A program made the translations under genes and the position numbers. Positions 3,009-20,583 of a stretch of DNA of 64,000 nt are shown one piece after another. Origin of the DNA: Candidatus Cloacimonetes bacterium HGW-Cloacimonetes-2 (GTDB lineage Bacteria; Cloacimonadota; Cloacimonadia; Cloacimonadales; Cloacimonadaceae); contig PHBP01000005.1 of assembly GCA_002842035.1 (NCBI GenBank), positions 1-64,000 of the forward strand. Reading direction: 5' to 3'. Position 1 is the first letter of the stretch; every line of letters starts with the position of its first letter. The notes under the pieces were generated by a model. It made no database searches. It was not told the origin of the DNA and saw nothing but the letters and a program-made list of their open reading frames with translations.

Positions 3009-6000
3009 ATGAAGAGATTATCATTACTCCTCGTGATGATATTCATCCTACTCGGTAGTCTGCTCGCCACCGAAGTAACAATCGGTGCAGGTAATGAGCA
3101 AGCTCGAAAACCCGTTGATATGTATTGGAAGAACTCATTGTTCCAAACCCTTTACTATCCGGATGAGCTTACTTTTGCCGCAGGTACGATTACCGGCGTC
3201 AAGTTCTACAACAATTTTGCAACTGATCTTCCTAGCAAGCCTATCAAGATCTGGTTGGGAACCACCACTCAAGCCACTCTCAGCACTTACATTCCCTCCA
3301 CACAGCTGACTTTGGTCTTTGATGGTATGGTCAATTTCCCTATGGGATCAAACACAATTGACATCACATTTAACACGCCATTTATGTACACTGGCAACAA
3401 CCTCGTGATGTTTGTGCAGCGTCCGATGGATACCGATTATTTCAGTTCCTCGGATTACTTCCTTTGCCAGACCGTTGGTACTGCCCGTTCTCTGAATCAT
3501 CAGAGCGACTCCACTACCTTCGATCCTGCTGCACCTCCCGCTTCTCCGACCATTTCCGGTCAGTTCCCCAAGACAACTTTCGTATATACCGGCCAACAGA
3601 TCACCAACGACCTCGGCGTCCTTGGTATCACCGGTAATATCACCCCCAGCGTCGGTGCTCCGACTACTTACAACATCACAGTCAAAAACAACGGTACCGC
3701 TACTCAGACTAACTACACAGTTAAGCTGATGAAAGAAGGCAACGTTGAGATTGCTTCCGTCCCCGGAACCTCCATTGCTACAATGCAGACCCTGAGCTTT
3801 GGTATTCCCTGGACTCCTACCGCCACCGGTCCTACCTACGTCTATGGTAAGGTCGAGATGGCTGGCGACGAAATCGCCACCAACAACCAAACCTCAAACC
3901 TGAACGTCGATGTCCAGGCTGCAGGTACGGTTGCTGTAACAGTCGGCGGCGGCGGTTCAACCGGCCGTATGCCTGTCGATATGTTCTACAAGAACTCCCT
4001 GTTTGAGACCATCTATCTGGGCTCCGAGCTCAATATCGGCGGTTTGCTTACAGGTATCCAATTCTACAACAACTTTGCCACCAACCTTCCCAATATGCCT
4101 ACCAATATTTGGGTTGGCGAAACCACACAGGCAGATCTGTCCGGCGGTTGGATTCCTTCCACCCAGCTTACCCAGGTCTATAGTGGCAACGTGAACTATC
4201 CTGCAGGCGCAAATAACATCCTGATCACCCTTACCACTCCCTATCCTTATGGTGGTGGCAATCTGGTCGTGATGGTCGAGCGTCCGATGGATACTCAGTA
4301 CTACTCCTCCAGCGATCTCTTCGTTACCCAGACGGGTACCGTTGCCAATCGCACCCTGAATGTCTATAGCGACACCACGGATTACGATCCTGCCGCTCCT
4401 CCTGCCGCCACCGGCAGCGCGATCTTCCCCAAGACTACCCTTATGTTCATCACCGATGGAATGGGTGCTCTTAGCGGAACCGTTTACGGACCCGGCGCAA
4501 CACCTCTGGCAGGTGCCACCGTTACCGTCGCAAACTCCACTCTGACTTATACCACAGGTGCCACCGGAACTTACAGCTTCCCTTACATTGCTGAGGGAAC
4601 ACACCAAGTATCCGCCACCAAGCACGGTTATACCGTTGATACCCAGACCGTGACCATCGTGGAAAATCAGACCACTACCCAAAACTTCACCGTCGCCCTG
4701 CTACCGCAGGTAACCGTTACCGGTATGGTAGTCGGTAGTGACCAGCCCACAGTCGGCTTGGTCGGTGCCACTGTTACCCTTACAGGTTACGAGCCTTACA
4801 CTGCCACCACAGTAGCCGGCGGTACCTTTACAATTCCGAACGTCTTTGCCAGCCAGACCTATGAATACACTGTTAGCTACACCGGTTATCAGAATGCCAC
4901 CGGTCAGGCAGTCGTCGGAACCACAAACCTCAATATGGGCACCATCACCGTCAACGAGATTGCCTTCCCCGCTACTCAGGTTGTTGCTACTGAAGCCGCA
5001 AACTTCAGCAACGTGACAGTTACCTGGGCCGAGCCCGGAACAGCCGGTGGCGAATGGCTCTCCTATTGCGGTGACAACGATGACAGTATCGGAACCGGCG
5101 GCGTCGCTGATTTCGACGTTGCCATCCGTTACCCCGCATCAGCTCTGACCGACTATGCCGGAATGAGCCTGCACACAGTCAAAGTCTGGCCTGCTCAGGC
5201 TGGAACCTTCTCCATCCGTGTTTGGACCGGCGGCACTGCCACTGCTCCTGCCCAGATGGTTGTTGACCAGCCCTTCACAGCCGTTCTTGGCGAATACAAC
5301 GAAATCACCCTCAATACCCCCGTTCCGATCACCGGTGCTGAAGAGCTCTGGTTTGGTTATCGCTGCAACGTGACTGCCGGTTATCCCGCAGGTTGCGATG
5401 CCGGTCCCCAAGTGGAAGGTTTTGGTAATATGATGTACTGGCAGGGTGCGTGGACTACGCTTTCTGCTCTTGCACCCACCCTTACCTACAACTGGAACAT
5501 CATGGGTTACGTTGGATTCAGCGGTCCCACCCGCGAGCTTGAGCTCAGACCTCTTGCTTTCAACGCCGACCGTCACAACACCGGCACTCTTGCCACCAGT
5601 GGCATCAGAAATGCCAGCGTTAGCGCTTCCAGACCCGAGAACAACGACCGTGTAATGACCGGTTACAAAGTCTGGCGTCTGCTTGCTGCCGATCAGGCCA
5701 ACGAAGCCAACTGGACTCTCCTCACCCCCAACACCATCACTGCACTTACCTATGTTGACAATGCCTGGCAGCCTCTGCCCAGCGGCGTTTACAAGTATGC
5801 AGTCAAATCCATCTACACCAACAATGTGATGGCTGCTGCCGCCTTCTCAAATGAGATTCACAAAGGTATGATGGGCACCCTGACCGGAACCGTTACCGAT
5901 CTTGGCAGCGGCACCCCGATTGCAGGCGCTACCGTTGTCGCCGGTGATTACAGCGGAACCACCAACGCAAGCGGTGTCTATAGCTTTGGCGTTTACCAAG

Positions 6001-8198
6001 GCATTTACACTGTAAACTGCGCTGCTCCCGGCTATCAGGCTGCTTCTCAACCCGCAGTCAATATCGCCGGTCTGCAGACCACAACTGTAAACTTCCAGCT
6101 TGCTGAAATTGCTCTTGCCCCGACTCAGGTCGTTTCCGAGCAAGTTCAGAATAATACCGTCGTCAACGTCTCCTGGATGCCACCGGATCCCAATGCCGTG
6201 GATATGACAGAAGACTTCGAAGGCACCTTCCCTCCCGAAGACTGGACACAGATCATCACCGATACCAGCGCTGCCGGAACCACCGGTGTGCTGCCTACCT
6301 GGTGCCAGGTCGGCGAAGTTGCCCTCACTCCTCCCGTTCCGCCTCATGGTGGAGCTGCTCAGGTTGGTTTGTGGTGGAGCTATAACCATCAGGATGAATG
6401 GCTCATTACTCCTGAATTCTCCTGCCCTCCCACTGCCTCTCTGAACGTCTGGAGCTATGTCTATTATGGCAGCACCAATGACGACCACTACTATGTCAAA
6501 GTCTCCACCAATGGTGGAACCGATTGGACCACACTGTGGGATGCCAGCACCCTTACCGGCGGCTGGAACTACTATGCCACTCCGATCACCGTAGATCTTG
6601 GCGCCTATGCCGGTCAGCAGATCAAATTGGCCTTCCATGCCGATGATCCTCCGTCAAACGATGGTCTCTGGTATGTCTGGTTCATCGACGACCTGACAGT
6701 CGGCAATGCCGATACAACCCTCAGATTCCCTGCCAGCCAGTTGACTTCCGTCTCTGCCGGCAACATGATCAAATACGAAAACGTGACCAATATCCCCGCC
6801 GTCGCCAGCCGTGCTGCCCTTACCAAGGGTGCCGAAGCTGTCGTCGAGCCCGTGATCGAATCCAACTACAGCTACAATCCTCCTCGCTCCCTCGTCGGCT
6901 ACAAAGTCTGGCGTCTGCTGCAAGGACAGGAAACCAACGAAGCTGTCTGGACTTCCCTCACCCCCAATTCCATCACAGCTACCGGTCATCAGGATACCGG
7001 TTGGGCTGGCGTTCCTGACGGAACTTATAAATGGGCTGTCAAAGCCGTCTATACCGGCAACGTAATGTCCATGCCCGCCTTCTCCAATCCTCAGACCAAG
7101 CTCACCCAGGTTGGCACCATTGCCGGTCTGGTACGTAATCCTCAAAACCAAGGCATCGCTGGTGCCACAGTTGTTTGCGGAACCGTCACTGCCACCACCA
7201 ACGCCTCCGGCGCATACGTGATGACAGTCGGCGCCGGCACAGTCAACGTTACCGCCTCTGCTCCCGGCTACAATGCCGTGACTCAGACCGGTATCGTAGT
7301 TGTCACCGGACAGACCACCACCGTGAACTTCACCCTTCCCGTTTCACAAATCGCGTTGCAAGATGGCTTTGAAAGCTATACCAACTTCACGCTCGATTTC
7401 GCACCCTGGACTTTGGTTGACGTCGATATGAGCACAACCTATGGTATGACCGGTATCACCTGGGAAAATGCCTATGCTGCAATGGCTTATATGATCTTCA
7501 ATCCGAGCGCCACAGTGCCCGCAGTCACCGATCTTGCACCTCACGGTGGAGCCAAGATGGCTGCTTCCTTCGCTTCCACAACTCCTCCCAACAACGACTG
7601 GATGATCACTCCTCTGGTCGCCGGCGGCGGAAACATTAAGTTCTGGGCTCGCTCCTATGTCGATACCTACGGTCTTGAGAGATTCAAGGTCGGTGTCTCC
7701 AGCGGCAGCACAAACCCGAACGACTTCACCATCATCAGCGGCGCTAACTACGTCCAGGCTCCTGTCGATTGGACTCAGTTCGAATACGATCTCGCAGCCT
7801 ACGCCGGTCAGCAAATCCGCATCGGTATCCAATGCCTCTCCAATGACGCCTTCATCTTCCTCGTTGACGATGTCGAAATCATGGGTGGCACAGATGCTAC
7901 CGACCCGACCGTACCTTCAGTCGTCACCAACCTGTATGGTAACTATCCTAACCCCTTCAATCCGGAAACTACCATCCGTTACAGTGTCGCCGAAGACGGT
8001 CCCGTCACCATCGACGTGTTCAACAGCCGTGGTCAGCTCGTGAAGACCTTGGTTAACGACAGCAAGGCTGCCGGAAACCACAGCGTCGTCTGGGATGGCC
8101 GTGACAACAACGGCTCCAGTGTTTCCAGCGGTATCTACTACTACAAGATGTACGCCGGCAAATACAGCAGCACACGCAAGATGATCCTGATGAAATAA
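3009..8198 (+). CDS. Giant modular secreted protein with type IX sorting tail
   Basis: A 1,729-residue exported protein of unknown target. An N-terminal signal peptide (about 1-20, ending SLLATE) precedes two copies of a roughly 160-residue module (about 33-194 and 317-481; both contain a PVDM..KNSLF motif, a FYNNFAT motif and a DPAAPPA motif). Four carboxypeptidase-regulatory-like beta-sandwiches (GxV....PIAGATV type) lie at about 485-565, 565-650, 956-1035 and 1369-1445. Two fibronectin-like segments contain GYKVWRLL, and two cleaved-adhesin/MAM-like jelly-roll domains lie at about 1064-1240 and 1451-1630. The last 90 residues (about 1640-1729) carry YPNPFNPET, SGIYYYKM and a lysine-rich end, typical of a FlgD-like/Por-type sorting domain that directs cargo through the type IX system to the cell surface. 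GGAGA at 3000-3004 supports the start. No catalytic motif was seen; adhesion or surface structure is an inference. Confidence 0.85.
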   Translation: MKRLSLLLVMIFILLGSLLATEVTIGAGNEQARKPVDMYWKNSLFQTLYYPDELTFAAGTITGVKFYNNFATDLPSKPIKIWLGTTTQATLSTYIPSTQLTLVFDGMVNFPMGSNTIDITFNTPFMYTGNNLVMFVQRPMDTDYFSSSDYFLCQTVGTARSLNHQSDSTTFDPAAPPASPTISGQFPKTTFVYTGQQITNDLGVLGITGNITPSVGAPTTYNITVKNNGTATQTNYTVKLMKEGNVEIASVPGTSIATMQTLSFGIPWTPTATGPTYVYGKVEMAGDEIATNNQTSNLNVDVQAAGTVAVTVGGGGSTGRMPVDMFYKNSLFETIYLGSELNIGGLLTGIQFYNNFATNLPNMPTNIWVGETTQADLSGGWIPSTQLTQVYSGNVNYPAGANNILITLTTPYPYGGGNLVVMVERPMDTQYYSSSDLFVTQTGTVANRTLNVYSDTTDYDPAAPPAATGSAIFPKTTLMFITDGMGALSGTVYGPGATPLAGATVTVANSTLTYTTGATGTYSFPYIAEGTHQVSATKHGYTVDTQTVTIVENQTTTQNFTVALLPQVTVTGMVVGSDQPTVGLVGATVTLTGYEPYTATTVAGGTFTIPNVFASQTYEYTVSYTGYQNATGQAVVGTTNLNMGTITVNEIAFPATQVVATEAANFSNVTVTWAEPGTAGGEWLSYCGDNDDSIGTGGVADFDVAIRYPASALTDYAGMSLHTVKVWPAQAGTFSIRVWTGGTATAPAQMVVDQPFTAVLGEYNEITLNTPVPITGAEELWFGYRCNVTAGYPAGCDAGPQVEGFGNMMYWQGAWTTLSALAPTLTYNWNIMGYVGFSGPTRELELRPLAFNADRHNTGTLATSGIRNASVSASRPENNDRVMTGYKVWRLLAADQANEANWTLLTPNTITALTYVDNAWQPLPSGVYKYAVKSIYTNNVMAAAAFSNEIHKGMMGTLTGTVTDLGSGTPIAGATVVAGDYSGTTNASGVYSFGVYQGIYTVNCAAPGYQAASQPAVNIAGLQTTTVNFQLAEIALAPTQVVSEQVQNNTVVNVSWMPPDPNAVDMTEDFEGTFPPEDWTQIITDTSAAGTTGVLPTWCQVGEVALTPPVPPHGGAAQVGLWWSYNHQDEWLITPEFSCPPTASLNVWSYVYYGSTNDDHYYVKVSTNGGTDWTTLWDASTLTGGWNYYATPITVDLGAYAGQQIKLAFHADDPPSNDGLWYVWFIDDLTVGNADTTLRFPASQLTSVSAGNMIKYENVTNIPAVASRAALTKGAEAVVEPVIESNYSYNPPRSLVGYKVWRLLQGQETNEAVWTSLTPNSITATGHQDTGWAGVPDGTYKWAVKAVYTGNVMSMPAFSNPQTKLTQVGTIAGLVRNPQNQGIAGATVVCGTVTATTNASGAYVMTVGAGTVNVTASAPGYNAVTQTGIVVVTGQTTTVNFTLPVSQIALQDGFESYTNFTLDFAPWTLVDVDMSTTYGMTGITWENAYAAMAYMIFNPSATVPAVTDLAPHGGAKMAASFASTTPPNNDWMITPLVAGGGNIKFWARSYVDTYGLERFKVGVSSGSTNPNDFTIISGANYVQAPVDWTQFEYDLAAYAGQQIRIGIQCLSNDAFIFLVDDVEIMGGTDATDPTVPSVVTNLYGNYPNPFNPETTIRYSVAEDGPVTIDVFNSRGQLVKTLVNDSKAAGNHSVVWDGRDNNGSSVSSGIYYYKMYAGKYSSTRKMILMK

Positions 8199-8226
8199 CG
8201 CCTCGCGCGCTAAATCATAACGAAAG

Positions 8227-8903: not shown

Positions 8904-9800
8904 ATGGATTATTATCTTGGCTTGGATATAGGCGGAAGCAGCATCAAATATGGCTTGGAGGATGCAGAAGGCCAGCTAATCCTCTTCAGTTCCATCCCCC
9001 TCAGAGAGCGAAGTCTGGCAGAATTCCGGGCTATCACCCGCGATATCTTGCATATATGCCAAAGCTACACCCTTGATGGCGCAATCGCCGCCATTGGGAT
9101 CGGCAGTCCGGGCCAGATCGATCATCGACGCGGAATAATCATCGGCAACAATCCCAATCTTCCCTTTTGGACGATGATCTCGCCCACTGCAATAATGCCG
9201 GAAGATCTCGATCTGAAGGTCGTTTTTGATAATGATGCCAATCTGATGGCTCTGGGCGAAGCCAGCCATTATCCTGCAGGGCACAACGTCCTGGGAGTCA
9301 CCATCGGCAGTGGAATCGGCTGTGGATTTTGCATTGGAGGCAAGGTATTTGGCGGTAGCCGGGGTTATGCGATGGAATTGGGACACATCACGAGTATTAT
9401 CGATGGCGCAGCTTGCAATTGCGGCAGATACGGCTGTTTGGAAGCATATTCCTCGCTGAATGGGATGCGCAATCGCCTCTGCGAGATCGGGTATAAAGCC
9501 AATGACTGGAATTTCGTCCAGCTCTTGCAAGCAGCAGAACTTGATAAAGAGGTCAAAGCCATACTGGACAAAGGGATAGAGCTCTTTAGCCTGGCTCTGG
9601 CAAATCTGATGATCATACTGGAGCCGGATCATTTGGTAATAGGGGGTGGAGCCTCTGAAATTCCGCTTTACCCGGTTCAGGAACTGATCGACAAAATCCA
9701 ATCCCTGCTGCCTCCTGAGCTCACAGATATCAGCATCGATCTTGCCAAACAAGGCAATAAAGCCGGAGTCTTGGGTGCAATCAGGCTGGCAAGAGGCTAA
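8904..9800 (+). CDS. ROK-family sugar kinase (glucokinase/N-acetylhexosamine kinase type)
   Basis: Cytoplasmic ATP-dependent kinase that phosphorylates a hexose or N-acetylhexosamine. The 298-residue product has the phosphate-binding motif DIGGSSIK at 8-15, the catalytic aspartate in FDNDANL (D111), and the ROK zinc site H161, C171, C173 and C178 in the CNCGRYGCLE stretch. The length is normal for a kinase; there is no N-terminal helix-turn-helix, so it is an enzyme and not a ROK repressor. AAGGAGC lies just before the ATG. It heads the glycan operon, with 13 bases to the next gene. Its sugar cannot be read from the sequence; mannose, GlcNAc or glucose released by the downstream enzymes are the likely candidates. 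Confidence 0.92.
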   Translation: MDYYLGLDIGGSSIKYGLEDAEGQLILFSSIPLRERSLAEFRAITRDILHICQSYTLDGAIAAIGIGSPGQIDHRRGIIIGNNPNLPFWTMISPTAIMPEDLDLKVVFDNDANLMALGEASHYPAGHNVLGVTIGSGIGCGFCIGGKVFGGSRGYAMELGHITSIIDGAACNCGRYGCLEAYSSLNGMRNRLCEIGYKANDWNFVQLLQAAELDKEVKAILDKGIELFSLALANLMIILEPDHLVIGGGASEIPLYPVQELIDKIQSLLPPELTDISIDLAKQGNKAGVLGAIRLARG

Positions 9801-9813
9801 AAACAGCTTGCCT

Positions 9814-12255
9814 ATGATCAGACGAATCCTGATCATCCTGTCATTTCTGCTGGTAATTTGCCTGTATGCCGTGCCAGCCCCGGTAGTCTTGAAAGTCTTT
9901 GAGCTTCCCGATCCCCGCGCCACAGATGCTTATTCCAAGGCCAATCTGGCGGTTGTGCAAGCTTTTCGCTCCAAGTATCCCCACATCGAGCTGCGAGCTT
10001 TTTCCGGTATCAAGATCGAAGGGATGGATCTGGATAGTGGGCCTCTGATGGCTATCGCCGGAGGAGTGGCACCGGATATTCTCTACGTAAACTTCCGCCA
10101 GAGTGATACTTATATACAAAACAACTTCCTCTATCCACTGGATGAATTCATCGCCCGGGAAAATCCTGAAGATATGGCGCTAAGGGTGGAAGCACCTGTC
10201 TGGCAGGTGATCCGACGCATTCGCAAAGGAGACGATAAAGAACATACCTGGGCCTTGCCCTACGAGACTCTGGTAAGGGTCTTGCTCTATCGCAAGGACG
10301 TCTTTCGCAGAGCAGGTTTGGACCCCAACCGTCCCCCGCGAACTTGGGAGGAATTCCGAAACTATGCCCGCATCCTCAGCGATCCTGCCAATTCCAATTA
10401 CGGCACGGTTCTGGCTGGTGGTTCTCAGGCTGCTTACGACTGGCTACCCTTCCTCTGGGCTGCTGGCGGTGATGCAGTTAGCTACGACTCTGTAAACCGG
10501 CAGTGGAACGCCAGCTTTGCCTCTGATGCCGGGATCACTGCTGTGGAGTATTACCTGAGCCTTCTCACCAGCGAGTGGAAGGACTCTGCCAGCCGTTCCC
10601 AACGTGGCTTTGCCATCCGGGAAGGCGATTGGGGCTATCTCTGGATGGAAGGCAAGATCGGTATGAAGATGGACTATCTCTCCCAGCAGAATATGGGCGG
10701 GAGATACGATCCCAATCTGTATGGCTTTGCGCCTTCGCCAGCCGGACCTTCCGGACGCGGTGGCAGCGAGATCAATTGCCGAATGATGGGCATCTTTAGC
10801 GGAGCAGGAATAAGTAACAATGCAGGCTTGGGAAGCCGTGATCCTGCCTTGGTGCGTGAAGCTGCCTGGCAGTACATACAGTTTTACGATAGCGAAGAAG
10901 CTCGCAAGATTCGCCTCAAGGTAATGATCGAGAGCGGTTTTGGCAAGATGCAGAATCCCGTCTTCCTAAAGCGCTATGGCTATGAAGACTATCTGCGCTT
11001 TGCGCCTGCGGGGTGGTTGGAGACCTTTGAGACTGCAATGCGGGAAGGCAAGCCGGAGCCCTATGGCGACAACTGCCAGAAGGTTTATGAATTTATGACC
11101 TATCCCTTGGATGAGCTGATCAAGCTGGATCTGGCAGGCAAGCTGGGGAAGACCGCAGCAGAGCGTCGGAGCAAGATCGGCTCTATCCTCAGTGCGGCGC
11201 AGTCCAGAACCAATCAGGAAATGATCGGAATCGTTGCGCCCCGGCAGCAGGCTCTTCGAGAACGCTTAGCTTCTGTGATAGCAGCTCTGATCGTCTTTGG
11301 CTTTGGCTTTACAATTTGGCGAGTCTGGAAGATATTGGCGCCCAATACAATCGCATCGGATTCCGGGAAAAAGAGCAGGATTCCGCTGCTTGTACTGCTC
11401 TTGGCTCCGGCGGTGATCAGCATCTTTGTATGGAAATACGTGCCGATGATCACGGGTAGCCTGATGGCAGTAAGGGATTTCCGGCTGGTGGGTGAGAGTC
11501 CTTTTGTGGGCGTGGGTAATCTGGCAGAGGTGCTATTTGACGCCACCTGGTGGGCATCAGTACTGCGAACGCTTTATTATATGCTGCTCAGCCTGGGGCT
11601 GGGCTTTTTCCCTCCTATAATCCTGGCAATAATGCTGCAGGAAGTCTCCCATGGCAAGATGCTCTATAGGGTGATCTACTACCTTCCGGCGGTGATCAGC
11701 GGGGTGATCGTGATCTATCTCTGGAAGCTGCTTTATAGCCCGAATGAGAGCGGTGCTTTGAATCAGTTGATTATGAGTATCGGCTTGCCCAAGAGTATGT
11801 GGATACGGGATGAGCATCTGGCGATGCTCTGTGTGGTTATTCCGGGGATCTGGGCAGGAATGGGACCGGGCAGCCTGATCTACCTGGCAGCTCTAAAGAA
11901 TATCCCAAATGAGCTCTACGAAGCATCTGATATAGATGGAGCGGGGTTCTTTGCCAAGCTCAGATATATAGTTTTCCCCAGCCTCAAGGGGCTGATCATT
12001 ATTCAGTTTATCGCCGCCTTCATTGTGGCTGCTCAATCCAGCGATTTCATCCTGGTGATGACCTTTGGCGGTCCGGGAGAAGCTACCCGGGTGGCAGATC
12101 TGCTCATCTTTGAGAAGGCATACTTGTATCTCAAATTTGGGCTTGCGACCACTATGGCGTGGCTCCTGAGCCTCTTTCTGATGGGCTTTACCGTGCTGCA
12201 GATCAAGTATCTCTCCAGAATGGAATTCAAGACCGCCAAAGGAGAGCAGGAATGA
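9814..12255 (+). CDS. Fused sugar-binding protein and ABC permease (MalE-MalF type)
   Basis: A single 813-residue polypeptide joining two normally separate parts of a carbohydrate ABC importer. Residues 1-20 form a signal-like hydrophobic start. Residues about 25-470 are an extracellular solute-binding domain of family 1 (PDILYVNF, ALPYETLVRVLLYRKDVF, GDWGYLWMEGKIGM). A membrane segment at about 485-505 leads to a MalF-like permease (about 522-805) with roughly six helices and the EAA loop ELYEASDIDGAG.F....FP at about 700-722, which docks the ATPase. The start at 9814 is the ATG 13 bases after the kinase stop; an earlier in-frame start would lack the exported N-terminus. The stop overlaps the next start by four bases. 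Tethering the binding protein to the channel is unusual for this family. No ATPase gene is nearby, so a shared MsmX-like ATPase elsewhere is inferred. Confidence 0.88.
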   Translation: MIRRILIILSFLLVICLYAVPAPVVLKVFELPDPRATDAYSKANLAVVQAFRSKYPHIELRAFSGIKIEGMDLDSGPLMAIAGGVAPDILYVNFRQSDTYIQNNFLYPLDEFIARENPEDMALRVEAPVWQVIRRIRKGDDKEHTWALPYETLVRVLLYRKDVFRRAGLDPNRPPRTWEEFRNYARILSDPANSNYGTVLAGGSQAAYDWLPFLWAAGGDAVSYDSVNRQWNASFASDAGITAVEYYLSLLTSEWKDSASRSQRGFAIREGDWGYLWMEGKIGMKMDYLSQQNMGGRYDPNLYGFAPSPAGPSGRGGSEINCRMMGIFSGAGISNNAGLGSRDPALVREAAWQYIQFYDSEEARKIRLKVMIESGFGKMQNPVFLKRYGYEDYLRFAPAGWLETFETAMREGKPEPYGDNCQKVYEFMTYPLDELIKLDLAGKLGKTAAERRSKIGSILSAAQSRTNQEMIGIVAPRQQALRERLASVIAALIVFGFGFTIWRVWKILAPNTIASDSGKKSRIPLLVLLLAPAVISIFVWKYVPMITGSLMAVRDFRLVGESPFVGVGNLAEVLFDATWWASVLRTLYYMLLSLGLGFFPPIILAIMLQEVSHGKMLYRVIYYLPAVISGVIVIYLWKLLYSPNESGALNQLIMSIGLPKSMWIRDEHLAMLCVVIPGIWAGMGPGSLIYLAALKNIPNELYEASDIDGAGFFAKLRYIVFPSLKGLIIIQFIAAFIVAAQSSDFILVMTFGGPGEATRVADLLIFEKAYLYLKFGLATTMAWLLSLFLMGFTVLQIKYLSRMEFKTAKGEQE

Positions 12256-14129
12256 GCATCATCGGCAAGGTCGGACGTAAATCTCCCAAGGTGCGCATCC
12301 TCAATCTGGCTCTGCATCTGATCCTGATCCTGGGCTCTCTTACGATGATCTATCCCTTTGTATTGATGATCTCTTCTTCGCTCAAGAGCAATGTGGATGG
12401 AGTCCGGATCACCTTGATTCCGCCCTATCTGCACAGTGATGAAGCCTTGTATCAGAAGTATCTGGAAAGCCGGTACAACGAGGAAAGCAGCCGCTTGATG
12501 GATAACTATCCGGGTAGCTGGATTTCCTTTGCCGAGGTGGAGCTAGAGGAAGATAAAGCCAATCCTGCCCTCTATGAACTCTGGAAGGACTTTTTGAGGG
12601 ATAAGCAAGAACAGATCAGCGTCTTTCACTACTATGTGGCAGAGCACTATGGACGAGGTATCTATCCTCTGGCGCAGCGATTGTTCCGGGCACAGCTCAG
12701 GGAAGAAAACCAGAACAGCCTTGTGGAGTTTAACAACCGCTATGGCACGGGAGCCGTGACCTGGGAAGAGATTGTAGTGGAAGAAAAGGATATCTATTCC
12801 CGCAATTTCGTAAGCAGTGACGAGGGTTATCTGGGACGCTTCCGACGCTTTAAGGAGACCACTCCCTTGTGGATGAGGTATTACGTTAATCTAGACGGTA
12901 GCTTTGTGAATAACGAGCTTATCCCGGCCTATGGCGGTAAGCTGGAGCTCTTTAACCGGGCTCATCAGACCAGCTATAGTGCCTGGAATCAGATCCGGCT
13001 GCCGGTCTCAGTGCCGGCTCCCGGTGATTCCCTGCGTGAGATTTGGCTGCATTATGTGCGCTCTGGCTTGAATCTGCAGCATCTCAAGCTGGCGGAGGAA
13101 GCTGGGGAGGATTATCGGGGCTATCTGCGGGGGAAGTATGGTAGCATTCTGCTCCTGAATCAGGCGTGGAAGACTGGTTTTGATAGCTTTGGTGAGGTGC
13201 AAATCCCCGCTCGTATGCCCGAAAGCGGTGCGGAAGCTGATGATCTGGCGTTTTATATCCAGAGTCTGGCAAGACCTGAGCATCTGCGCATCAATAGCCT
13301 GGCGGAGGATTTCCGCAGCTATATCTATGCTCGGATGGGTTCTCTGGAGACAATCAACACTTTCCTCAAGACCGATTATACAGAGCTGAGCCAGATACCT
13401 TTTCCCAGCCTGGAACAGGATTACTATGCCTTTGAGGCTCGGAAGGGAGAGATCAGGCGGGAGTTTCTCTGGCGCAATTATGCGATGGCACTGGATCAGA
13501 TGCTTTCTGATGCCAGATCTTTGCGTAATACAGGCATCTATGTGCTGCTCTCGATCCTGCTGGCAATCACGGTCAATCCCTTGGCAGCTTATGCGCTTAG
13601 CAGGTTTAAGCCACGCTTCAGCTACCAACTCATTATGCTCTTTATGCTCACGATGGCTTTCCCGGCAATGGTGATGGGCATCCCAAACTTCCTGATGCTG
13701 AAGCGCTTGAATCTGCTCAATACCTTCTGGGCATTGGTCTTGCCTGCAGCAGCAGATGGATACTTTATCTTCCTGCTCAAGGGCTTTTTTGATAGCCTGC
13801 CCAAGGAAATTTATGAAAGCGCCAGCATCGATGGAGCAGGTGAATTTCGCCTCTTCTGGCAGTTCACCCTCTGGCTCAGTAAGCCCATCCTGGCGGTAAT
13901 TGCCCTGGGTGCCTTCAATGCTGCTTACAGGAACTTCCTGTTTGCCTTTATAGTATGTCAGGATCAATCGATGTGGACTCTGATGGTGCACATTTATACC
14001 TTGATGCAAAGAGCCAGCACGGGAGTGGGCTATGCCGCTCTGGTGATTGCCGCGATTCCCACACTGCTGATCTTTGTCTTCTTCCAGAATATCATTATCA
14101 AGGGGATTGTCGTCCCTATGGAGAAATAA
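12252..14129 (+). CDS. ABC sugar permease (MalG type) with a large repeat-bearing insert
   Basis: Second membrane subunit of the importer. The 625-residue product is about twice the usual size. Helix one (about 18-42) is followed by about 375 residues predicted to lie outside the membrane (about 50-425), then five more helices with the EAA loop EIYESASIDGAG at about 519-530. The insert contains about five units, roughly 65-79 residues apart (near 66, 145, 221, 288 and 353). The clearest contain YGGKLELFN....TSYSAWNQIRLP, YGSILLLN.AWKTGFDSFGEVQIP and MGSLETIN..LKTDYTELSQIPFP. This motif recalls a helix-turn found in GH42-type glycosidases (YGs...LN.aWgT.f.s...I..P); that resemblance is from memory. 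No catalytic pair was identified. A substrate-capturing or docking role is an inference. The stop abuts the GH38 start. Confidence 0.85.
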   Translation: MSIIGKVGRKSPKVRILNLALHLILILGSLTMIYPFVLMISSSLKSNVDGVRITLIPPYLHSDEALYQKYLESRYNEESSRLMDNYPGSWISFAEVELEEDKANPALYELWKDFLRDKQEQISVFHYYVAEHYGRGIYPLAQRLFRAQLREENQNSLVEFNNRYGTGAVTWEEIVVEEKDIYSRNFVSSDEGYLGRFRRFKETTPLWMRYYVNLDGSFVNNELIPAYGGKLELFNRAHQTSYSAWNQIRLPVSVPAPGDSLREIWLHYVRSGLNLQHLKLAEEAGEDYRGYLRGKYGSILLLNQAWKTGFDSFGEVQIPARMPESGAEADDLAFYIQSLARPEHLRINSLAEDFRSYIYARMGSLETINTFLKTDYTELSQIPFPSLEQDYYAFEARKGEIRREFLWRNYAMALDQMLSDARSLRNTGIYVLLSILLAITVNPLAAYALSRFKPRFSYQLIMLFMLTMAFPAMVMGIPNFLMLKRLNLLNTFWALVLPAAADGYFIFLLKGFFDSLPKEIYESASIDGAGEFRLFWQFTLWLSKPILAVIALGAFNAAYRNFLFAFIVCQDQSMWTLMVHIYTLMQRASTGVGYAALVIAAIPTLLIFVFFQNIIIKGIVVPMEK

Positions 14130-17100
14130 ATGCACAATGAGAAGATTCACATAGAGCGTATCAAGCGCTTGATCGAAAGACAAAAACCTCTGATTCACAC
14201 GCTAAAGAGCGACATACCGGCTTATCTGGTGAACTGCGAGAGTCCTCTGTCTCACCCTCATCACGAGGGCTGTAATGCTCTAAAAGAGATCATTAAAGGA
14301 GAAGTCTGGGGCAAGAAATGGGGAAGTGCTCACTTTGAAGTGAAAGTCACAATTCCCGAAAGCTTTGCCGGGCTGAAGGCTGGCTTGTGGTTTGATTGTG
14401 ATGGTGAAGCCTGCGTGATGAAGGATGGAACGCCCTACCAGGGACTCACACCCAAGGTTGATTGGTATCACAACGCTGCTAAATACTATGTTCCGCTCTC
14501 TGATGAAGCCAGATCCGGCGAGGAATATCATATACTCATTGAAGCCTCTGCCAATGATCTGTTTGGAGCCGGTAAGGAGGAATATGCCTTAAAGGAATGC
14601 GCTCTGGTGAGCCTTGATACGCAGCTACGCAGTGATTTGCTGGATCTGGAACTGCTGCTAAATCTCGCCACTGCTCTGCCGGCAGGGCAGGCACGGCGCA
14701 AGAAGATCCTCTGGGGGCTCAATGAAGCTTGTAATTACTGGCATTCAGATAGAGCTCAAGCCCGGCAGATCCTGCAGGAACTGCTCTCAAAGCCTGCTAA
14801 TGCCAGTGCGCTTACTGCCTATAGTGTCGGTCACGCGCATCTGGATCTGGCGTGGCTCTGGCCCCTGAGAGAATCCAAACGTAAGGGCGGCAGAACCTTT
14901 GCCAATGCCTTGCGCCTCCTTGAGCAGTATCAGGATTACGTCTTTGGAGCTTCACAGGCTCAGCTATACCTATGGATAAAGGACATATATCCCGGGCTCT
15001 ATGAAGAGGTGAAGGCAGCAGTCAAGACAGGCAGATGGGAGATTCAGGGTGCTTCATGGGTGGAATTTGACACCAACCTGCCCTCCGGAGAGTCTATCAT
15101 CAGGCAGTTTTACTATGGCAAGAAGTTCTTTTCCAGAGAGTTTGGTTTTGTGCCCAAAACGCTCTGGCTACCGGATTGCTTTGGCTTCAATGGCAACCTG
15201 CCTCAACTGATGAAAGGCTGTGGTGTGGACTATTTTATGACTCAGAAGCTGAGTTGGAACGAGAGTAACACTTTCCCTCACCATCTCTTCATCTGGCAAG
15301 GTATAGATGGTACCGAGCTTCCGGCACATCAGCTTCCTACCAACGACTACAACTTCTCAAACAACCCCTCTGCCTTCCTGCAAACAGAAGAACGCTATGC
15401 CCAGGCAGAGATCAGCGATGCCTATCTTAATCTTTATGGCATCGGTGATGGTGGCGGTGGACCCACTCTGAATCATATCGAGTACGGTCTCCGTCAGCAG
15501 AATCTGGAGGGTGTAAGCCGCTTCCGCTTTGCCCGCAGTGACGAGTTTTTCGACTATTACAAGAGCCTGGATTCTCGGCTCTTGCCCAAGGCCTATGGCG
15601 AGCTATATCTGGAGTTTCACCGCGGCACCTACACCTCTCAAGCCCTGATGAAGCTGAACAACTTCACCAGCCAAAGGCTGCTAAGCCTGGCAGAATTCCT
15701 GGCTGCTGCCGGCTCTCTGCCCTACCCCGAGGAACTGCATCCCATCTGGGAAGACACCTTGCTGCTGCAGTTTCACGATATCATCCCCGGTTCTTCCATC
15801 ACAATGGTCTATGAAGATGCCCACCGTATCTCCGCAGAGAACCACACAAAGCTCCTGGCTCTGGCGCAGCAATTGCTAGAACACGAGACGAATAGAGCTA
15901 TCACGGTGATAAACGATAGTCAGTGGGACAGAACCGAGTGGATAGAGCTGGATGCTGGACTATCTGCCGCTGACAACCAATATATATCCGATAGAATAGA
16001 GAATAACAAGGAGATGATCAAGCTGCAATTACCACCCTTCTCCCGGCTCAGTCTTCCACTAAGAGATGCAGAACAGAGTCCTGCCGCAGATACTCCTTCC
16101 CTCATCACAGAAAACAGCTTCCTCAGGGCAGAGATCAGCCCCCGCGGCAGCATCCTGAGCCTGATCATCAAGCCTGAAGACCGCGAGATGCTCCTGAAAG
16201 AATCCAATCTGCAAAAGCTCTGGGAGGATAAACCCAATAACTGGGGTGCCTGGGATATCAACCACTTCTATCACGATACTGTGCCCCAAGAGGCTATAGA
16301 TGGCAAGCTGATTACAGAGCTCTGTATCAACCGCCCAGGCAAGCTGCAAAGACTGGTGCAAGACATCCCAATAGGTGATCTGATGCTCAGGCAGACTATT
16401 GAGCTGGGTGCCCAAGACCAGTTCCTCAGAATCAAACACGAGATCAATTGGCAGACCACCCACCGGATGCTGCGCACCCATTTCTACCCCAAAATCAAAG
16501 CAAATCAAGCTACTTACGAGATAGCTATGGGAACAATCAAGCGCAGTACCCGTCCTAAAAACGCCTGGGAACTGGCTCAATTTGAGGTTCCTGCCCATAG
16601 ATTTGCTGATTATTCCCAGAGCGACTACGGCTGTGCACTGCTTTCCAAAGCCAAATACGGCTATCGCATTGTGGAAGACGAGATGGAACTCAACCTGCTA
16701 CGTAGCCCGGCCGACGTTGATCCCACTGCCGACCAGCATCAACATACTTATGAATACGCTTTCTACCCGCATCGCGGCTCATTTGAGGATTCCCGGGTAC
16801 TGCAAATGGCACATTGCTATGCATACCCCCTTGAAGTAATGCTAGGAGGAAAGACCGCACCAAGCCTGGAGCAAATTGGTATCAAGCTCGAAGCTACAGC
16901 GGTCAAACTCGATACCATCAAACCGGCTTACGGTCGCGATGGCATCGTGCTAAGGCTTTATGAATACCGCGGAGGTTCTGCCAAAGCCCAGCTTACTCTG
17001 CCCCAGGAATACAAACACGCCTACCGTTGTATGATGACAGAGGAGATCCTGGAGCCAGTGGATTTCACTGATGCTCTCACGCTGCAGTTCGAGGCTCACC

Positions 17101-17138
17101 AGATCATCACCATGCTCTTTACCAAGGAACCCCAATGA
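14130..17138 (+). CDS. Alpha-mannosidase, glycoside hydrolase family 38
   Basis: Hydrolyses alpha-linked mannose from oligosaccharides with retention of configuration, using a zinc ion. The 1,002-residue protein has the N-terminal GH38 barrel with the zinc-binding HAHLDLAW (H237, D239), the nucleophile D349 in WLPDCFGF, and the later zinc histidine in QFHDIIPG, followed by the middle three-helix and large beta C-terminal domains. No signal peptide is seen, so it acts in the cytoplasm on imported sugar. Its ATG follows the permease stop directly and its stop overlaps the GH20 start by four bases, consistent with coupled translation. Length and motifs are normal for bacterial class II mannosidases. 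Confidence 0.95.
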   Translation: MHNEKIHIERIKRLIERQKPLIHTLKSDIPAYLVNCESPLSHPHHEGCNALKEIIKGEVWGKKWGSAHFEVKVTIPESFAGLKAGLWFDCDGEACVMKDGTPYQGLTPKVDWYHNAAKYYVPLSDEARSGEEYHILIEASANDLFGAGKEEYALKECALVSLDTQLRSDLLDLELLLNLATALPAGQARRKKILWGLNEACNYWHSDRAQARQILQELLSKPANASALTAYSVGHAHLDLAWLWPLRESKRKGGRTFANALRLLEQYQDYVFGASQAQLYLWIKDIYPGLYEEVKAAVKTGRWEIQGASWVEFDTNLPSGESIIRQFYYGKKFFSREFGFVPKTLWLPDCFGFNGNLPQLMKGCGVDYFMTQKLSWNESNTFPHHLFIWQGIDGTELPAHQLPTNDYNFSNNPSAFLQTEERYAQAEISDAYLNLYGIGDGGGGPTLNHIEYGLRQQNLEGVSRFRFARSDEFFDYYKSLDSRLLPKAYGELYLEFHRGTYTSQALMKLNNFTSQRLLSLAEFLAAAGSLPYPEELHPIWEDTLLLQFHDIIPGSSITMVYEDAHRISAENHTKLLALAQQLLEHETNRAITVINDSQWDRTEWIELDAGLSAADNQYISDRIENNKEMIKLQLPPFSRLSLPLRDAEQSPAADTPSLITENSFLRAEISPRGSILSLIIKPEDREMLLKESNLQKLWEDKPNNWGAWDINHFYHDTVPQEAIDGKLITELCINRPGKLQRLVQDIPIGDLMLRQTIELGAQDQFLRIKHEINWQTTHRMLRTHFYPKIKANQATYEIAMGTIKRSTRPKNAWELAQFEVPAHRFADYSQSDYGCALLSKAKYGYRIVEDEMELNLLRSPADVDPTADQHQHTYEYAFYPHRGSFEDSRVLQMAHCYAYPLEVMLGGKTAPSLEQIGIKLEATAVKLDTIKPAYGRDGIVLRLYEYRGGSAKAQLTLPQEYKHAYRCMMTEEILEPVDFTDALTLQFEAHQIITMLFTKEPQ

Positions 17139-18565
17139 TCCCCAAACCGGTAGCGCAAACTATCTATACAGAGAGCTTCCCGGCTCCCCGTCAGTTTTCT
17201 GCGGGAGAGGGACTTACCACTATAGCAGAGGAACTGAACCACTTCCTCAATGGCTTGCAGAGCCAGACTACACCGGATGAATCAGGTAAAGCCTGGCGTC
17301 TGGAACTTCATACAGGAGCAGCTTATGAGCATCCCGAAACCTACCAGCTGGAGATTGATCAGGGCAGGATTCTGCTTTCCGCAGCCGATCCCCAAGCCCT
17401 GCGCTATGCCCTCAGCACCCTGAAACAGCTCTTATTCTCTGCTCACAAAACAGACGGCCTTATCCACAAACAACTAATTCGCGACTACCCCCGCTATCGC
17501 TGGAGAGGCCTGCATCTGGACGTAAGCCGTCACATCTTTGAGCCCGCCTTCATCAAGCAGTATCTCAAGCTGATGAGCGAGCTCAAACTAAACAAGTTCC
17601 ACTGGCATCTCACAGACGATCAAGGCTGGCGCATCGAGAGTAAAAGATACCCGCTCCTGCAGGAGATCAGCGCCTGGCGCAAAGAAGCCGATGGCGAAAG
17701 ATACGGAGGCTACTACACCCAGGGGGAGATCCGCGAAGTCGTGGCTTATGCCACAGAGCTTGGCATCGAGGTGATCCCGGAGCTTGATCTCCCGGGACAT
17801 ATGATGGCAGTACTATCCGCCTATCCCCAGTTTGCCTGCAATCCCCAAGCCTTTGATACAATGAACGTTTGGGGTATCTCCGAGGACATCCTCTGTGCCG
17901 GAAAAGACTCCACAAGGGATTTCATCCTGGATCTCGTTGACGAAGTGGCGGAGCTCTTTCCCGGAGCCTATTTCCACCTGGGTGGTGATGAAGCTCCCAA
18001 GGATAGATGGAAAGCCTGTCCATACTGCCAAAAGCGCATACGGGAACTGGGTCTGAAAGACGAAGAAGACCTGCAAAGCTGGCTCTTTGACACAGTCACT
18101 GCGCATCTGGCATTGAGGGGCAAGACTGTAATCGGTTGGGACGAGATTCTGGAAGGAAATCCCAGCCGCGAGACCATCGCTATGCTCTGGAGAGGGGATG
18201 CCAAAGCTGCCGCCCTGCAATCCGAGAATCGTGGCTACAGAGCTATCCTGGTGCCCAATCACTATTTATACTTCGACTGGAAGGCATCCGATGATAGCCC
18301 CGGTGCCTTTGGAGTGACCACCCTGCAAAAGGTCTGGCAGTTTCCAATTGATGAGTATTTCATTCAGCGTCCAGATTTGCTTCTGGGCGTGCAGGCCAAT
18401 CTCTGGACGGAGCAGATTTCCACTACCCAGCGTGCCTGGGAGATGCTGATTCCCAGAGTCTATGCCCTCTCCGAACTGGCATGGGGCAAGCAGTCTGATT
18501 ACCCTGATTTTGAAGCCAGAGCACAGCTTTGGGAGGATTACATTTCCTATGCGTTACCCCGATAA
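17135..18565 (+). CDS. Beta-N-acetylhexosaminidase, glycoside hydrolase family 20
   Basis: Releases terminal GlcNAc or GalNAc by substrate-assisted catalysis. The 476-residue protein has a GH20b-like N-terminal domain (about 1-110) and the catalytic barrel with GLHLDVSRH, KFHWHLTDDQGWR, the PELDLPGHM strand and the catalytic pair D285-E286 in HLGGDEAPKD, plus GWDEILEG. There is no signal peptide, so it is predicted to be cytoplasmic. It overlaps GH38 by four bases and the GH130 gene by 17 bases. In this operon it would remove GlcNAc from mannose-GlcNAc glycans taken up by the importer. Confidence 0.95.
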   Translation: MIPKPVAQTIYTESFPAPRQFSAGEGLTTIAEELNHFLNGLQSQTTPDESGKAWRLELHTGAAYEHPETYQLEIDQGRILLSAADPQALRYALSTLKQLLFSAHKTDGLIHKQLIRDYPRYRWRGLHLDVSRHIFEPAFIKQYLKLMSELKLNKFHWHLTDDQGWRIESKRYPLLQEISAWRKEADGERYGGYYTQGEIREVVAYATELGIEVIPELDLPGHMMAVLSAYPQFACNPQAFDTMNVWGISEDILCAGKDSTRDFILDLVDEVAELFPGAYFHLGGDEAPKDRWKACPYCQKRIRELGLKDEEDLQSWLFDTVTAHLALRGKTVIGWDEILEGNPSRETIAMLWRGDAKAAALQSENRGYRAILVPNHYLYFDWKASDDSPGAFGVTTLQKVWQFPIDEYFIQRPDLLLGVQANLWTEQISTTQRAWEMLIPRVYALSELAWGKQSDYPDFEARAQLWEDYISYALPR

Positions 18566-19508
18566 TCCCATCATCCACAGAGGCTTGGTCCCTCAGACCG
18601 ACAAGCGTATTTTTGACCCCAGCTCCGTCTTCAATCCCGGAGGCTACCTGCAGGAAGGATACTATAAGCTGATCCTCCGGGTGCAAAACCGTGCTCGTGA
18701 GACCTTTCTGCTGCCTGCCAAGTCCATCGATGGCATCACTTTTGAGATATCAGAGACGCCCTTGGATTTCTGCTCAATGGAAGACTTTTCCTACACTATC
18801 TACCATATCTACGATCCCCGTCCGGTAATGCTGGGACAGCGCTTAGTAGTTGTCTGCGCTATAGATACTGATTCCGGCTGCCGATTGGCTTTGTTTGAGC
18901 AGGAGGATAGCAACCGGCTCCGCTATCTGGGTATGCCGCTGGATCAGGAGCTGAGAAATGGCGTCATCTTCCCGGAGCAGATCGACGGAAAGTACATTAT
19001 GTTCGCCCGTCCCAACGACTTTGCCGGCTCCGACGGCGTAAAGTCCGGCAAACAGATTGTGGCGTATCAATCTCTCGATCTGCTACATTGGGAACAGCTT
19101 GCGGCAGTGTTCACGGGCAGAGCACACTATTGGGATGAACTGATCGGCTCCGGCCCCACACCGCTCAAAACAAGAGCCGGCTGGCTGCATATCTATCACG
19201 GAGTCGCCACTCACTTCGCTTCTGCAAATCTTTATCAGATGGGCATTTCGTTGCAGGATTTGCAGCGTCCCTGGATCACCCGTTCCCGCGGAAAGTACAA
19301 TATCCTGGAGCCAAGGGAATACTACGAACTTGTGGGACAGGTGCCCGGAGTGGTCTTCCCTTCTGCCGCTTTAAGCCGGGACTACGATTCCGAGGGCTTC
19401 CTCCTGCCGGGGGCCAAAGTGAACGTATATTACGGCGCTGCAGATACATCTGTAGCCCTGGCACAATTCACACTGGAAGAACTACTGGAGGCAGCTTATG
19501 CAAATTAG
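18549..19508 (+). CDS. GH130 glycoside phosphorylase/hydrolase (mannoside-specific)
   Basis: Family GH130 enzymes cleave beta-mannosides, most by phosphorolysis to mannose 1-phosphate; known members act on Man-beta-1,4-Glc, Man-beta-1,4-GlcNAc or beta-mannans. The 319-residue product has the five-bladed propeller hallmarks IFDPSSVFN near the N-terminus, YDPRPV in mid-sequence, and GSGPTPLKTRAGWLHIYHGV. The ATG at 18549 (MRYPDNPIIHRG) is preferred because it matches the family N-terminus; upstream in-frame sequence belongs to GH20. Phosphorylase versus hydrolase cannot be settled by eye. With GH38 and GH20 next to it, Man-GlcNAc from an N-glycan core is the most economical substrate (inference). 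Confidence 0.9.
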   Translation: MRYPDNPIIHRGLVPQTDKRIFDPSSVFNPGGYLQEGYYKLILRVQNRARETFLLPAKSIDGITFEISETPLDFCSMEDFSYTIYHIYDPRPVMLGQRLVVVCAIDTDSGCRLALFEQEDSNRLRYLGMPLDQELRNGVIFPEQIDGKYIMFARPNDFAGSDGVKSGKQIVAYQSLDLLHWEQLAAVFTGRAHYWDELIGSGPTPLKTRAGWLHIYHGVATHFASANLYQMGISLQDLQRPWITRSRGKYNILEPREYYELVGQVPGVVFPSAALSRDYDSEGFLLPGAKVNVYYGAADTSVALAQFTLEELLEAAYAN

Positions 19509-20583
19509 ACTTATCAGCCTGGTAATCACCCTCTTAATACTCGGCTTTACACTCTCCGCCGAGACTTTTCCCGTGCCCAGGGGCGATTTTGCTCCTCGCA
19601 ACTACACCGCAATGCGTCCCATTGATGAGATCGTGATCGATGGCAACCTGACTGAGTCGAGCTGGCAAGCAGCCGCCTGGACTGAGGACTTTGTGGATAT
19701 CGAAGGCGATCTGAAGCCACAGCCCTTTCACCGCACCAGAGTCAAGATGCTCTGGGATTCTTCCTACCTCTATTTTGGCGCGGTAATGCAGGAGCCTCAT
19801 ATCTGGGCAAAGCTCACCGAGCGCGATGCCGTTATCTTCCACGACAACGATTTTGAGATCTTTCTCGATCCTGATGGTGACACTCACGACTATTACGAAC
19901 TGGAGCTCAACGCTCTGGGCACGCTCTGGGATCTGCTCCTTATCAAGCCCTACAGGGATCGTGGGCAGGTGGCAGTAAATGCATGGGATATCAGATCGAT
20001 AGACTATGCCATCGGTATCGAGGGAAGCCTCAATGATCCATCCGATACGGACAGCCTCTGGTGCGTAGAACTAAAGCTCCCTCTATCAGTAATCTCCGAA
20101 CTTGCCAATATGCCTGTACCACCAAGGGATGGAGACTTTTGGCGCCTGAATTTCTCACGTGTGCAGTGGGATACCGATATCGTGGATGGTGAATATCGGA
20201 AGATTCCCGGCAAGCCTGAGTATAACTGGGTCTGGAGCCCTCAGGGTTTGATCGCGATGCACTATCCGGAGCGCTGGGCTTACCTCTTCTTTTCGGATCG
20301 TCCGGTGGGTAGCTATCCCGTCTCTTTCCAGATTCCTGCCCGGGAGGGAGTGCGGGAAGCTCTACGCCAGATCTATTATCTACAGAAACAATACTTTATG
20401 GATAATGGACGCTATGCCCGCAGCCTGCGTAGTTTGGGAGCAAAGCCGATTTATTGGCAGGGCAAAAAGCTCCGTCTGCGCTATGAAAGAACCAGTGCAG
20501 GCTATCTGATCACCAGCCCGGTAGCACCGGAGCTGCCCTCCTACCACATCCGCGAGGATGGAAAGATCTGGACTGCAAAGTAG
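19498..20583 (+). CDS. Secreted CBM9-like carbohydrate-binding protein
   Basis: A 361-residue exported protein with a signal peptide (about 1-21) and a carbohydrate-binding family 9-like beta-sandwich (about 38-265: IDGNLTESSWQ near its start, YFGAVMQEPHIWA, DNDFEIFLDPDGDTHDYYELE). These domains bind reducing ends of sugars. The last 90 residues contain REALRQIYYLQKQYFMDNG and RYARSLRSLG, like the globular part of pseudopilins (residues about 280-360), an unusual partner. The gene overlaps GH130 by 11 bases and ends the operon. It may present glycan to the importer; this is inference. No catalytic motif was seen. Confidence 0.8.
   Translation: MQIRLISLVITLLILGFTLSAETFPVPRGDFAPRNYTAMRPIDEIVIDGNLTESSWQAAAWTEDFVDIEGDLKPQPFHRTRVKMLWDSSYLYFGAVMQEPHIWAKLTERDAVIFHDNDFEIFLDPDGDTHDYYELELNALGTLWDLLLIKPYRDRGQVAVNAWDIRSIDYAIGIEGSLNDPSDTDSLWCVELKLPLSVISELANMPVPPRDGDFWRLNFSRVQWDTDIVDGEYRKIPGKPEYNWVWSPQGLIAMHYPERWAYLFFSDRPVGSYPVSFQIPAREGVREALRQIYYLQKQYFMDNGRYARSLRSLGAKPIYWQGKKLRLRYERTSAGYLITSPVAPELPSYHIREDGKIWTAK

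Follow-up and report, generated by a model that had tools for sequence, protein, structure and literature searches.

The MalG-type permease encoded at 12252..14129 on the forward strand carries a large insert in its first periplasmic loop, built from five related units that resemble a segment of glycoside hydrolase barrels. The gene lies in the window, the whole 64,000-nucleotide stretch of DNA from Candidatus Cloacimonetes bacterium HGW-Cloacimonetes-2 that we analysed, and its product belongs to a CUT1-type (MalFGK-like) sugar ABC importer with a predicted role in transport. The preliminary description of this DNA had proposed a repeat insert in a permease of this kind, and the repeat is real: unit profile, fold model and shuffle control all point to five related units. 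We tentatively regard the insert, at rather less than an even chance, as a new repeat domain that arose from a multiplied barrel segment and serves MalG as a docking arm, together with a MalF-fused solute-binding protein. Such importers would then have a distinct architecture, found in several uncultivated phyla, with the length of the arm set by the number of units.

The permease has 625 residues, is UgpE/MalG-like by NCBIfam, and contains a BPD_transp_1 domain above the Pfam cut-off at residues 444–619. Hydropathy places TM1 at residues 13–44 (12288..12383, forward strand), with a Lys/Arg-rich N-terminus. TM2 begins at about residue 423. The rest of the MalG membrane domain, from TM2 onward and including the EAA-type loop, occupies 13518..14126 (forward strand) by Pfam and MalG alignment, and the EAA-type 'ESASIDGAGEFRLF' aligns with canonical MalGs. 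Compared with canonical MalGs of 278 residues, the protein has approximately 350 additional residues, and the alignment assigns all of them to the first periplasmic loop, between '..LIP' and '..NY' of the TM1–TM2 segment. When the units are taken out, the remainder aligns with the canonical proteins. Given the usual orientation of TM1, the insert is on the outer face of the membrane; the outward-facing position first proposed for it holds, with the insertion carried by the loop between TM1 and TM2. No second copy of the insert was found in the window's own genome.

The five units all lie on the forward strand. Unit 1 spans residues 63–129 (12438..12638), unit 2 residues 140–211 (12669..12884), unit 3 residues 214–280 (12891..13091), unit 4 residues 282–347 (13095..13292), and unit 5 residues 350–396 (13299..13439), followed by a long helix into TM2. 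Each is recognised by the unit profile; unit 1 is also defined by predicted helices and a strand, units 2 to 5 by the fold model, unit 2 additionally by a profile link to unit 3, and unit 4 by Pfam. The unit profile has 58 positions (consensus FRKYLESKYGDLSRLNRAYGTSYSSFEEIKLPEKLPPSGALREDWLEFVREVANPHHL) and matches residues 67–117, 145–179, 221–278, 288–345, and 354–388. The resulting spacings of 78, 76, 67, and 66 residues agree with the 65–79 noted originally. A core motif had been proposed for about five units; the count of five stands by profile, but the strict core is exact in only three of them, at residues 227, 296, and 362. With a profile trained on units 3 and 4 alone, the held-out units 1, 2, and 5 score 13–15 bits, whereas the maximum over 1000 shuffles of the insert is 7.3 bits, so the repeat signal is above chance. 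By profile–profile comparison the five units belong to a single family, with probabilities of 98% for units 4 and 5, 96% for units 3 and 4, 90% for units 2 and 3, and 74% for units 1 and 4. Units 1 and 2 show no direct similarity to one another in this comparison (0.4% probability).

Structure prediction of the insert alone, suggested in the preliminary description as a check, gave an ordered array with one module per unit. The AlphaFold2 model of the outer insert and its flanks (residues 41–428; 12372..13535, forward strand), made from an alignment of 34 sequences, has a pLDDT of 90.1 and a pTM of 0.86. Each unit is predicted to consist of a helix of 12–15 residues, a helix of about 8 residues, a short helical turn, and a helix of about 12 residues. 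A three-residue strand closes units 1–4, and a 30-residue helix after unit 5 runs into TM2. The regularity of this pattern suggests a solenoid-like array. In a full-length model the insert keeps a pLDDT of about 90 and the membrane part falls mostly below 60, so placement of the arm is not readable from that model; the poor membrane part probably reflects an alignment that is shallow and nearly identical in this region. No Pfam repeat family was found in the insert, the model had no match among viral structures, and none of the PDB matches listed covers the whole array (TM-score at most 0.15, E above 0.08). The structural matches in the PDB are local, to GH14, GH42, GH50, and GH167 enzymes, such as 41 residues at 1.1 Å in the GH167 structure 9whd and 47 residues at 2.5 Å in the GH42 structure 8ibt. 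Two outcomes that the preliminary description had set against its own reading did not arise. The confident, ordered model rules out an unstructured linker, and a known single domain is ruled out by the lack of any whole-domain match among the PDB matches listed or in viral structures.

The likeness to GH42 enzymes that had been noticed in the sequence is borne out for one unit. Unit 4 scores 27 bits against Pfam GH42, above the cut-off of 21, and the match covers only profile positions 147–206 of 376. A profile search with one unit, also suggested beforehand, retrieved only glycoside hydrolases and close relatives from the PDB: the 25 distinct sequences at E < 0.1 comprise glycoside hydrolases and a related beta-1,2-glucosyltransferase, with a best E of 2.6e-07. 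The matched GH42, GH14, GH50, and GH167 enzymes each share one helix-turn segment with the insert unit ('frkyL..kYg.i..LN..y.T.y.sF.ei.lP'), whereas the insert has five to seven in tandem and lacks both the barrel and the catalytic residues. The presence of this segment in all four families and in the glucosyltransferase suggests a barrel fragment that may cross family boundaries. In the GH42 enzyme 1kwg the matched segment begins at residue 159. This is past the acid/base, which we take to be Glu141, and far ahead of the nucleophile, so the segment contains no catalytic residue. The insert lacks a complete catalytic barrel with its acid/base and nucleophile glutamates, and its model has no whole-barrel match; the missing catalytic pair had been noted at the outset. 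Membership of GH42 is therefore ruled out, the shared part being a non-catalytic segment of approximately 55 residues past the acid/base position. For this common segment the scores favour descent over convergence on a sturdy helix-turn.

The preliminary description had put forward a receptor platform or a glycan-holding arm, and both roles are still putative. The enzyme relatives are also a reason to consider that the insert handles sugar itself, with barrel-derived units binding oligosaccharide chains and passing them to the fused binding domain. We consider such a glycan-holding or feeding arm unlikely. The PDB matches of the unit profile fit it, but the residues common to all units are the fold-making ones, which the enzymes conserve too. 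In the alignment to 1kwg, moreover, nothing in the units corresponds to the enzyme's five-residue loop 'afwsq', which presumably bears a substrate-contacting Trp.

Genes around the permease bear on the same question. From 8904 to 20583 the window contains a likely cluster for mannose/GlcNAc oligosaccharides: a ROK kinase upstream of the fusion gene (8904-9800, Pfam), the binding-protein–MalF fusion, MalG, and, on the forward strand and assigned by Pfam, GH38 (14130-17138), GH20 (17135-18565), and GH130 (18462-19508), followed by a CBM9-like protein (19498-20583) whose C-terminal part reads like a pilin/GspG-type tail. The GH38, GH20, and GH130 neighbours suggest a substrate containing mannose and GlcNAc. 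Separately, positions 3009-8201 encode a secreted-looking protein of 1729 residues with a C-terminal sorting-type tail (YPNPFNPETTIRYSV...). The window's genome has one OB_MalK protein, which is unlinked to the importer locus; a MalK-type ATPase adjoins the importer genes in loci L065 and L071. The order from the fusion gene onward (GH38, GH20, GH130, CBM9 protein) is kept in most Cloacimonadota loci, and the three glycosidases in the operon are consistent with a glycan arm. Against that role, the Firestonebacteria locus has folate/C1 genes as neighbours and no glycosidase nearby, and loci with five and with seven units have the same glycosidase neighbours. The shared operon likewise disfavours a 'glycan ruler' whose length is tied to substrate.

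The insert is found in four phylum-level groups and in versions of five, six, or seven units by the unit profile, which answers a further suggestion of the preliminary description, to survey its taxonomic spread. It is present in 44 of 125 Cloacimonadota genomes, in 8 of 13 genomes from the phylum of a Delongbacteria-like relative, in about 10 of 45 genomes from the phylum of the Firestonebacteria relative (counting full-length matches), and in some dozen of 246 sampled genomes from the phylum of a groundwater bacterium, where weaker matches are single units inside other, long reading frames. Two divergent relatives were also seen. Locus L105 (907-3606) has seven unit matches, some of them well upstream of where the insert normally lies, in a gene whose start is cut off. 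Locus L080 (3588-5387), from the same genome as L072, is a second insert-bearing MalG with at least four unit matches and its own binding-protein–MalF fusion.

Placed in a tree, 90 units fall into groups according to their position in the array. Units 1 to 4 cluster with their counterparts, and the final unit of five-unit arrays joins that of seven-unit arrays, leaving units 5 and 6 of the seven-unit versions as extras just ahead of the last unit; the deep forks of this tree are weak because the units are short. Among 16 five-unit orthologues, identity is approximately 90% in the membrane core and 56% over the whole insert, and within the insert it is 68% for units 1–2 and 46–48% for units 3–5. 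The gap between core and insert, together with the changing number of units, could be read as passive expansion of a tolerated repeat that does no more than keep the two subunits joined, or that serves no particular function. That reading is very improbable in our judgement, given that the insert is retained in four phylum-level groups, that units 1–2 keep 68% identity, and that units are orthologous by position.

The constant partner of the insert is the gene directly upstream, whose stop overlaps the start of the MalG-type gene. It encodes a fusion of solute-binding protein and MalF-type permease (9742..12255, forward strand), with SBP_bac_1 (3.1e-19) and BPD_transp_1 (2e-08) identified by Pfam in one frame, which substantiates the neighbouring permease-fused binding domain noted earlier. 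The open frame starts with TTG at 9742, but translation more likely begins with the ATG at 9814. TM-like stretches lie at residues 21–56 and 507–533, followed by MalF. The MalF portion aligns with UgpA over its full length (16–290 of 295) and so lacks a P2-type domain. The fusion gene is directly upstream of the insert-bearing MalG at all 33 loci with enough contig (L039-L074), and all 44 insert-bearing Cloacimonadota genomes have a close relative of it; these co-occurrence counts come from relatives, and each genome is not independent evidence. Two further Cloacimonadota genomes carry fragments of the fusion gene. One fragment ends at a contig end inside the gene, and the other, in a genome that is 74% complete, has no MalG after it. 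In two further phylum-level groups, many divergent loci again pair the fusion with an insert-bearing MalG where the flank reaches, some flanks being too short to show the binding domain. The arm is found essentially only in the neighbourhood of the binding-protein–MalF fusion gene.

The reverse does not hold. A second type of binding-protein–MalF fusion (762–764 residues), present in other Cloacimonadota, adjoins an ordinary 278-residue MalG without units at five control loci (L107, L108, L109, L110, and L111), and Pfam identifies the binding-protein and permease domains in 4/4 of those scanned. These loci rule out the idea that the insert accompanies every such fusion. The insert is instead a feature of a single clade among the fused importers, and fusion by itself does not bring it about.

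The bacteria are presumably diderm, and a stiff, outward-facing arm whose length varies could also recruit a component of their envelope. A glycosidase (secreted or a lipoprotein), an outer-membrane porin, or the cell wall could be bound in this way, with release of products beside the importer. Faster variation in the later units than in the first two is compatible with such recruitment, which we nevertheless rate as distinctly improbable: while other neighbours vary between groups, the fusion stays constant, and no other accessory gene occurs with the insert throughout the groups examined.

We favour, at slightly under an even chance, a docking or positioning role for a rigid outer arm of MalG. 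The array of five to seven tandem helix-rich units in the first periplasmic loop would form this arm and would dock or position the MalF-tethered binding domain over the translocation pore. Units 1 and 2, the best conserved, may provide the main contact surface, the later units may lengthen the arm to a variable degree, and the arm may fill the role of the unrelated P2 loop of Escherichia coli MalF, which is absent from MalF here. We prefer docking because of the outer position of the insert, its autonomous fold, and its constant partner amid changing neighbours, and also because conservation concentrates in units 1–2 and MalF has no P2 domain. Two observations count against docking. The control fusions pair with an ordinary MalG, which shows that a binding protein can be tethered with no need for an arm of this kind, and the sole known relatives of the unit are sugar-acting enzymes, which fit a glycan role at least equally well.

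The importer class and binding-protein–MalF fusions are already known. The E. coli MalFGK2–MalE system, also CUT1, has the same permease fold families and class of binding protein, and it too has an extra periplasmic domain beside the binding protein. The E. coli domain, the P2 loop, belongs to MalF, whereas in the present importer it is loop 1 of MalG that holds the additional domain, as a five-fold repeat, and no MalF chain matched the insert by sequence or among the fold matches listed. A maltose importer in which MalE and MalF form one fusion protein is attributed to Licht et al. 2019 where PMC7756565 cites that work. The binding protein is joined to MalF in that importer as it is here. 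The importer is reportedly from Bdellovibrio, and its MalG is not known to contain a repeat insert. In its passages on the Mal system, a Cloacimonadota genome paper (PMC8542988) gives a permease and a solute-binding protein and does not mention the insert. No description of such a repeat insert was found in the literature searched, which excludes most subscription journals. To our knowledge, no described importer has such a domain.

Automatic annotation may call permeases of this kind GH42 proteins, although they lack the GH42 catalytic residues. The versions with five, six, and seven units are a natural series for the effect of arm length. If the proposed origin is correct, this would be a rare case in which a segment of an enzyme barrel was multiplied into a repeat domain of a transporter. 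If the docking role is correct, the arm would be a second, independent way for a sugar importer to keep its binding protein in place.
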